Assembly: GCA_015231295.1 (NCBI GenBank) | Contig: JADGBU010000005.1 | Coordinates: 1 to 40,035, forward strand | Length of the DNA: 40,035 nucleotides | Direction of reading: 5' to 3' | Source: Magnetococcales bacterium | GTDB lineage: Bacteria; Pseudomonadota; Magnetococcia; Magnetococcales; Magnetaquicoccaceae | Part shown: positions 23,401 through 38,838 of the stretch, piece after piece | How the letters are laid out: each line of letters opens with the position of its first letter | Position numbering within the stretch: position 1 is the first letter of the stretch | Made by a program: the position numbers and the translations under genes | Notes under the pieces: model-generated | Databases searched by the model: none | What the model was told of the DNA's origin: nothing | The model's input: the letters and a program-made list of their open reading frames with translations, nothing else

Positions 23401-23613
23401 GAATGCTATACCTCCCTTTCGCGGCTGATTGGCTGACACATGGAAAGACAAAATGGGCACAACCGCAAGGGACGGATCGCAATGGGATGATGGAATCCCA
23501 TCTCGGCCTACCCGACAAGGGGCGGGCGGATGGGGTATGTCGGCTACGGTAACTTGTGAGAAAAAATCAGGAAATTACGGTTTGACGGCTGTCATGACGG
23601 TTCAGAAGCGGTC

Positions 23614-23928
23614 AAAAAAAAGAGAGGATGGGGGGGGAGTTCTCTCACGGAATTTTGAGGGATTGCAGGGGTCCGGGGAGCGGCACGCTCCCCGGCAGAG
23701 GTTTGGAGACGGAGTCTCCAAGGCTGCGTGCAGAATGTGAGCGTCGTTTCCAAAAATACGGAAACGACGCTCACGAAGGCCGCGCGCGGCGCATTTTTCG
23801 CAGAAACCGCGAAAAATGCTTCTTGAGAAGAGCGCGCTTTAAAGTCAAAAAATCAAAAAGTCAAAAAGAAACAAATCCCAAGGGCTTCGCCCTTGGATCC
23901 CACCAGGGGTCAATGACCCCTGGACCCC
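23614..23928. repeat. Cluster of six stem-loops between the deacetylase 3' end and mltA
   Basis: Within the 529-bp gap 23401-23929, six perfect inverted repeats lie in about 260 bp. They are: CCGGGGAGCG/CGCTCCCCGG (23673-23695); TTGGAGAC/GTCTCCAA (23703-23721); GTGAGCGTCGTTTCC/GGAAACGACGCTCAC, a 15-bp stem (23737-23774); GCATTTTTCGC/GCGAAAAATGC (23791-23819); CCAAGGGC/GCCCTTGG (23878-23896); and CCAGGGGTCA/TGACCCCTGG (23903-23923). The last two form a full module B that ends one base before the deacetylase stop codon's first base. The A8-GAGAGG start at 23616 resembles the edge of module A. Nothing recognisable as a gene is present; 23401-23613 shows no structure beyond the mltA ribosome-binding site. 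Confidence 0.75.
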
Positions 23929-23929
23929 A

Positions 23930-37300: not shown

Positions 37301-37429
37301 TGGGGGCCGGTGGCCACCTCCATCGTCTGGGGATTGGCCTTTTCCACCGCGTTGACGCTGTTTCTGATTCCGCTGCTTTATCTGATGTTCATGCGCGATA
37401 AAGGAGACGGGAGCGCGCCAACCCATTGA
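34343..37429 (+). CDS. RND-family inner-membrane efflux transporter (AcrB/HAE1-like)
   Basis: 1028 residues, the full length for the family. It shows two repeats of six membrane helices with large periplasmic loops. The proton-relay pair in TM4 is present (LGMLVDDAVVVVESISLR), as are the porter-domain stretch GIQGVDSVMALGLRDPEI and family segments such as SLGIPFALSGTFI and VASSSLTTMAAFLPLMLLPG. In TM10 the segment LSGIAVNSAIVLVAA carries Asn/Ser where AcrB has its relay Lys, as in many non-AcrB HAE1 relatives. It exports a substrate by proton antiport with its adaptor; substrate class cannot be read. The A8 run of repeat module A starts within its stop codon. The 850-codon antisense ORF is a shadow. 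Confidence 0.92.
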   Translation: MIREFLGNHVLANLAFGLVLVLGFLTYGMLPRQQDPDMNFNWISIVTILPGAAAEDVEKLITDPLEEALQNIPDIRFVMSSSSDATSSMLVRFNEMDDRTFDKRIADLRREISNKQRELPEECEDPIILEITSANGWPTVMAVVSGEADDETLRQQARRVQKDLEGIQGVDSVMALGLRDPEIQVRFDPVQLAILGVDPTRLSSTVSTRFRDLAGGAVAMGEGNRMLRYQGTTPDPNQLASWPIPGREGELQINRVAEVARERKKADRAVRYMGKPAVLLTVTKRPGVNSLELTERIKAYLEKRQALKDHTGVQTLLADDQTSMVQNALSIMESNALMGLTMVFAATWLFLGFRISLLVSLGIPFALSGTFILLYAMGETLNVMALLGVVIALGMLVDDAVVVVESISLRLAQGAKAMDAAIEGLREVAIPVASSSLTTMAAFLPLMLLPGILGKFMRIIPMVVSLALVISLVEAFWMLPAHVAALKWHGDRPPSRAQRVRTRWMHRIRIGYVRLLVPVLRRPKLSLGISMLGLMASIGIVASGQLKVDFFAMDPMPMFYVNIKMPSGSSLERTMTTTLEVEKRVREGLQAHEIRAVVPYAGQMMTDTAPFFGDRFGQILISLVPDNQQRRSVQEIIAGMRAAVLATPGPDQITFLPMSGGPPVTKPISVKVRGDDLEPLRAATAKIKEILATMPEVSDIGDNFTMGSRELVLRPDADALRRAGLEAGMVARLTRLLADGEIAATFQHQGEQVKVRVKANPTPRQGVEEILNLPVALPGGGTTTLGTLTHHETRQGVDTIHHYNFRRAITVEAELDRERMDVITANERLKQEWKKVQTEFPGIDLDFTGILDDINEALDAILVLFLFGFGLLYLILGTQFKSYFQPLLILSTVVMAFVGVVFGLLLTGHPLSLYTLYGVVALSGIAVNSAIVLVAAANDRRRDGMKPIHAMIFAARRRVVPILITSITTIAGLSSLAMGLGGKSLLWGPVATSIVWGLAFSTALTLFLIPLLYLMFMRDKGDGSAPTH

Positions 37430-37560
37430 AAAAAAAGAGAGGGTCTGGGGGATTCATCCCCCAGGGTTTTGACTTTCAAGCAATATTGATAAAATTTGTT
37501 GTTTTGAACGTCCCAGGGCTTCGCCCTGGACCCACCAGGGGCCAATGGCCCCTGGACCCC
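37429..37560. repeat. Repeat modules A (copy 2) and B in tandem between convergent genes
   Basis: Module A is 37429-37473: A8, then hairpin CTGGGGGAT-TC-ATCCCCCAG at 37445-37464, then GGTTTTGAC. Module B is 37511-37560: CCAGGGC-TTC-GCCCTGG (37513-37529) and CCAGGGGCCA-A-TGGCCCCTGG (37535-37555), then ACCCC. The 37-bp spacer is AT-rich and unlike other loci. From the minus-strand Sel1 gene the order is stop, B, spacer, A, T8, as in a composite terminator. It fills the whole 143-bp junction. Confidence 0.75.
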
Positions 37561-38647: not shown

Positions 38648-38700
38648 GCACAGACCTCCCGGATGCGTGAACCGCGCCCATGGCGAGATGCCAACGATTG

Positions 38701-38838
38701 AAAAAAAAGAGGGGGTCTGGGGGATTCATCCCCCAGGGTTTTGACTCGGAAAAAGACACCGCCTGCGGCGGTTTTATGCGCTGAAGTCCCAAGGCTTCGC
38801 CCTTGGATCCCACCAGGGGCCAATGGCCCCTGGACCCC
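38701..38838. repeat. Repeat modules A (copy 3) and B in tandem between accC and hpt
   Basis: Module A is 38701-38743 with hairpin CTGGGGGATTCATCCCCCAG at 38717-38736. A small extra stem CCGCC-TGC-GGCGG is at 38759-38771. Module B is 38787-38838 with CCAAGGC..GCCCTTGG and CCAGGGGCCA-A-TGGCCCCTGG. Seen from accC the order is stop, B after 8 bp, spacer, A, then T8, so it probably ends the acc transcript before hpt. Confidence 0.75.

Follow-up and report, generated by a model that had tools for sequence, protein, structure and literature searches.

ERIC, RU-1/2/3, NEMIS and Correia-type repeats are non-autonomous hairpin repeats of intergenic DNA, built from one or a few hairpins with short inverted ends, and they can affect mRNA ends. 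RU repeats have been described (PMC2759123), as have REP sequences, RAYT transposases and the composite elements known as REPINs or BIMEs (PMC3116915, PMC8266576, PMC2817692). A REP is a palindrome of 20-50 nt that stands behind a conserved tetranucleotide, mostly GTAG (PMC8266576), and REPINs are high-copy extragenic palindromes arranged in inverted pairs (PMC3116915). The region considered here lies in a window of 40,035 nucleotides of Magnetococcales DNA, the whole stretch that was analysed, to which all positions refer. It behaves like a BIME/REPIN or a MITE, but by test the element is not a member of the REP/RAYT group, nor is the window copy an IS630 MITE. Most probably, the region derives by internal deletion from a hairpin-rich mobile DNA element of Magnetococcales that is dispersed and non-autonomous.

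The element copy occupies positions 23668-23928 (261 bp) and is flanked, as the initial annotation had placed it, by a polysaccharide deacetylase gene (PF01522; 23930-25210, - strand, stop codon 23932-23930) and, downstream of the element, by an mltA-like lytic transglycosylase gene (PF03562 and PF06725; 22144-23460, - strand). A single base separates the element from the deacetylase stop codon. Since the protein can be aligned with several homologues right up to its C-terminal end, this stop codon is the native one. The array contains exactly six non-overlapping perfect stems, of the same 10, 8, 15, 11, 8 and 10 bp that were first noted: hairpin 1 (23673-23695), hairpin 2 (23703-23721), hairpin 3 or P1 (23737-23774, + strand, with an 8-nt loop), hairpin 4 or P3 (23791-23819), hairpin 5 (23878-23896) and hairpin 6 (23903-23923). 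By chance, 0.06 such hairpins are expected on average and at most one was seen (300 dinucleotide-preserving shuffles of 261 bp). This is the densest hairpin cluster in the window, which holds 21 such hairpins in 40 kb. Folding of both strands, a check proposed together with the annotation, gave -147.3 kcal/mol and z = -11.5 for the + strand and z = -9.0 for the - strand. The six-hairpin feature is thus real and strongly non-random.

The copy ends in GGGGTCC (23668-23674) and GGACCCC (23922-23928), which belong to a 19-nt inverted repeat that includes flanking bases and is 84% complementary. The outer pair of hairpins had been assigned to one repeat, module B. Module B is the right terminal pair (hairpins 5 and 6; 23876-23929, - strand), whereas the left terminal pair (hairpins 1 and 2; 23666-23724, + strand) is a different module, A', of like layout. 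Between them, P1 is followed by a three-way unit (23782-23837, + strand) that comprises P2 (GCGCGC, 23782-23787 with 23832-23837), P3 and the short TTC/GAA stem P4 (23820-23829), and then by an A-rich linker (23838-23877, + strand; AAAGTCAAAAAATCAAAAAGTC...) that is T-rich on the deacetylase strand. The outer half of P1 differs between copies, with compensated changes. The resemblance of the left edge to module A was borne out by comparison with module A copies: positions 23612-23655 (- strand) form a degenerate remnant in which the CTCTCTTTTTTTT tail is retained and the stem is gone.

The intact form of the element is found in congeners. One of them (G009) carries many divergent pairs of units whose spacing hardly departs from about 56 bp, and we propose that two such half-units, pointing away from each other around a short centre, make up the intact element, a dyad. 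Such a dyad measures about 500 bp. Its left half runs from GGGGTCC through two hairpins and a T-rich linker to GCGCGC[P4, P3]GCGCGC and P1', its centre is short and carries a small hairpin of its own, and its right half consists of P1, GCGCGC[P3, P4]GCGCGC, an A-rich linker, two hairpins and GGACCCC. The window copy retains the hairpin pairs at both ends but lacks one of the two inner units; hairpins 1 and 2, the left end, are joined straight to the right half, made up of P1, P3 and the terminal pair 5 and 6. Comparison with four other loci (L227, L228, L233 and L235) places the junction at 23719-23733. It is here that the copy lacks the linker, three-way unit and P1 of the left half as well as the centre of the full dyad. 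CAAGG is present on either side of this junction and may represent the microhomology at which recombination removed the left inner half. None of the fetched loci holds an autonomous dyad with a gene of its own between the halves; the sole gene-bracketing pair encloses an apparent host gene. This pair (L244; G010:C2:162700-164400) consists of two half-units whose module-A ends face outward, and the gene between them looks by eye like trmL (tRNA methyltransferase).

All parts of the array recur in its own genome (G000), a draft of 3.79 Mb in 353 contigs at 84.65% completeness, for which the copy numbers given are minima or counts from a first look. A search with the region returned 45 matches that fall into three sets: A', with five near-identical copies; element C (P1 plus the three-way unit), with about nine copies, some truncated; and the high-copy module B, with 237 first-look candidates, 40 of them scored. 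Module B stands at the end of several contigs, a usual place for a repeat at which assemblies break. The four inner hairpins had been thought to occur nowhere else in the window, which stands for exact copies only and fails for hairpin 5, a part of module B with copies at, for example, 37512-37560 and 38787-38838; across the genome, a search that the annotation had suggested, their uniqueness disappears altogether. All six window hairpins are parts of dispersed repeats and represent neither a terminator by itself nor an RNA peculiar to this site. Modules B and A often lie near each other elsewhere in this genome. Within the window, they stand about 40 bp apart in equal orientation, with no element C between them, at 37425-37560 and again at 38697-38838, two sites within 1.5 kb, and the pairing is also found on other contigs. 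A further abundant three-way sub-family, with a P3 of GCGAATGGC/GCCATTCGC and a CCGCCGCAGGCGG hairpin, adjoins module B at L037, L040, L049 and L059.

Across the phylum, 399 Pseudomonadota genomes were searched with a covariance model (R2), which detected the unit in 27. These are all Magnetococcales and span seven families of the order. Tens of copies occur in many magnetotactic Magnetococcales genomes. The distribution is patchy, with zero units in the congeners G001, G003 and G008. Among named genomes, a DNA pattern taken from element C matches only Magnetococcales MAGs (nHA4bin8, nQXH2bin1, WMHbin3 and nW5bin1). Plasmids, phages and viral contigs gave zero unit matches, the viral scan being of one exact pattern, and an origin from phage, plasmid or virus was rejected on this lack of matches. 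A second cmsearch match within the window copy (- strand, 23774-23683) consists of reversed P1 and A' pieces and was taken as a chance fit. Searches of the open-access literature found no Magnetococcales repeat or multi-hairpin MITE.

The copy in the window is lineage-specific at its site. The unit is absent behind the deacetylase gene in all nine readable congeners, the tenth (G001) being cut by a contig end; in G003, other hairpin modules follow the gene. Among the congeners read, only G005 has an mltA-like gene near the deacetylase. Since gene order is not conserved and the neighbour of the deacetylase differs among congeners, the locus offers no exact empty site, and neither a target duplication nor an empty site was seen for the GGGGTCC-bounded element here or elsewhere. 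Mobile-element remnant, one of the options initially listed, is the best supported of them, given the dispersed parts, the intact form in congeners and the lineage-specific copy.

How the stems change provides a view of what maintains them. Among 12 copies of element C, both sides have changed in 10 of 35 pairs and 98.1% of cells pair, and none of 500 shuffles reaches any of these measures. Among 107 distinct rows from several genomes, changes on both sides occur in 35 of 35 pairs; such cells number 720, where shuffles give 164 (0 of 500). These rows were fitted to the structure model, so the count from the 12 copies is to be preferred. As a control, the partners were slid by 1-3 columns, which destroyed the signal in both alignments. 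G-T pairs make up 0.67% of standard pairs in P1, 1.32% in P2 and 0.80% in P3. P4 is weak, with 84% pairing and 12% G-T, and this pairing may not be real. Because the stems vary on both sides together, with about 1% of G-T pairs, they probably evolve as DNA palindromes. Between close copies of one genome, distinct two-sided Watson-Crick changes outnumber other stem changes by 83 to 15 in the native form (12:0 in G000, 7:2 in G002, 30:5 and 9:3 in G009, 25:5 in G035), whereas copies carried in IS630 MITEs in G007 show 1 to 19, a one-sided decay; these counts are not fully independent, and since some G000 and G009 copies also have IS630-type ends, native and MITE-borne copies are best told apart in G002, in G035 and among the G009 dyads. 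Put most simply, native spread would renew the palindromes, and carriage by another transposon would let them decay. Selection on folded DNA during copying, or correction of one arm by the other, could keep the stems palindromic at the DNA level, probably with no RNA role.

Strong structural conservation with covariation, as well as A-rich loops and a linker that are strand-specific across copies, might instead suit a structured RNA, either small or cis-regulatory, in which P1 and the three-way junction would be followed by the terminal hairpin as terminator. This option, also raised by the initial annotation, is disfavoured and quite unlikely: G-T pairs amount to 0.8% in P1-P3 against 3.5% in 26 tRNAs of the same genus, although this deficit is only about four-fold; recent MITE-borne copies shed pairs freely; tens of copies sit at unrelated sites; and dyads read out both ways. 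In Rfam, no family reaches its gathering cut-off, the matches below it including chrB-b at 23.3 bits where 36.5 are needed. The inner stems, whose lack of conservation would have spoken against the annotation, keep their structure in the 27 genomes recovered with the covariance model that it had called for, as part of a mobile repeat. A second alternative, possible but on balance doubtful, is that the region is mainly a terminator or mRNA 3'-end block before mltA, in which module B, and perhaps A, stops transcription and the inner hairpins add stability. Module B follows a gene on the same strand in 22 cases and one on the opposite strand in 7 (29 classifiable upstream genes, called with a crude ORF caller), and 13 of the 22, about half, lie within 20 nt of the stop codon. 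On the deacetylase strand, moreover, hairpin 5 is followed by the T-rich ATTTGTTTCTTTTT (terminator-like site, 23867-23897, - strand). However, one such site (23897-23877, - strand) was found where shuffles give 1.0, many other copies of module B are followed by a tail that is not T-rich, and the three-way unit and P1 are structurally conserved yet needless for termination. Given that chance alone yields about one site of this kind in sequence of such length, a role of the deacetylase-facing module B in termination or at the mRNA end is put forward as likely. The composite terminator expanded by insertion that had been suggested is partly right in the proximity of B and A and the T-rich tail of hairpin 5, but the inner hairpins make up a defined half of the element and are no ad hoc expansion. 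If the region is a mobile-element remnant, the end that faces the deacetylase would stop or stabilise its transcript as a side effect.

The means of spread can be weighed in the same manner. Movement by a Y1 (RAYT) transposase, as for REP sequences, BIMEs and REPINs, would agree with the high copy number, the extragenic position and the inverted pairing of the palindromes, and with the occurrence of Y1 transposases in 31 of the 48 Magnetococcales genomes. It is nonetheless highly improbable. None of the 21 fetched Y1 loci holds the unit, and those inspected show no matching hairpin array; a Y1 match is absent from the carriers G036 (100% complete), G002 (93%) and G039 (95%); no invariant GTAG or GTGG precedes the stems in the aligned copies; and units of about 100-550 bp with many hairpins differ from palindromes of 20-50 nt behind GTAG (PMC8266576). 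REP/RAYT membership was accordingly rejected for want of the tetranucleotide-palindrome and the Y1 linkage, with inverted-pair, high-copy and extragenic character present. In its own genome, two loci (L062, G000:C121; L063, G000:C159) carry broken or truncated copies of an IS200-like Y1 transposase. More has to be said for other transposons, and part of the spread, by IS630-type and possibly IS66-type elements, counts against mobility of the dyad on its own. Ends of the IS630 type (TAAACCGCAMCCA) with TA borders enclose most copies in G007 and about five in G000. A parent element with DDE_3 (PF13358) and HTH_33 domains and ends TAAACCGCACCYA... is present in G001 (L174; G001:C71:387-1618), and ends matching it recur many times in G003, G005 and G007. 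Insertion is clear at another locus (L243; G007:C360, 360-810), where P3 of one unit is interrupted by a second dyad that has GTAACTATTCAG/CTGAATAGTTAC as its outer ends and is flanked by 8-bp direct repeats, CGCACTTT; the interrupted stem continues across the site. The 8-bp duplication and GTAA ends presumably recall IS66. Some copies were dispersed as part of an IS630-type MITE, and one was carried by a MITE leaving an 8-bp target duplication. That the array is mere cargo of such ordinary MITEs, with no mobility of its own, is still unlikely, as both end types are absent from the window copy, from the dyads of G002 and from most of those in G009, and native copies evolve unlike MITE-borne ones; the same array also occurs in more than one MITE backbone as well as in other families, which suggests movement of its own or recombination. 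The window copy was excluded as an IS630-type MITE, the shared terminal repeats and TA being absent around it (the end pattern has no match on its contig, C351). No transposase is linked to the GGGGTCC-bounded form.

A rather unlikely extension of the mobile-element reading is that the repeats represent a new class of non-autonomous mobile DNA, confined to Magnetococcales. Its spread would involve an intermediate, either single-stranded and folded or a hairpin, and copying of one arm of each hairpin onto the other would keep stems perfect whatever their sequence; the enzyme would be neither a RAYT nor a known DDE transposase. In many Magnetococcales genomes the family, apparently unnamed in the literature searched, takes up intergenic DNA and is met where contigs end. 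It presents the same palindromes in two modes of spread, with stems perfect in one and decaying in the other, a contrast that allows one to ask whether hairpin repeats are kept by selection, by palindrome correction at the DNA level or during transposition. For the window, the element explains the six hairpins and cautions against annotation as a riboswitch or small RNA.

Among known systems, REPINs and BIMEs share with this element the high-copy extragenic palindromes in inverted pairs with a short spacer, single-half remnants, non-autonomy and mosaic clusters. In contrast to them, each half here is multi-hairpin with a three-way junction, the total reaches about 500 bp, a GTAG-type tetranucleotide and a linked RAYT are not seen, and the distribution is limited to one order. 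IS630-type MITEs share the TAAACCGCAMCCA ends and TA borders of some copies, and a congener carries the DDE_3 parent transposase; however, the window copy is without such ends, the array occurs in several backbones and its mode of decay differs. Intrinsic terminators likewise have a GC-rich hairpin and T-rich tail on the strand of the gene, directly behind its stop codon, but here the tail is imperfect and not conserved between copies, and most of the element is superfluous for termination. ERIC, RU, NEMIS and Correia-type repeats are set apart by description: the element considered here has six to eleven hairpins, and its stems covary.
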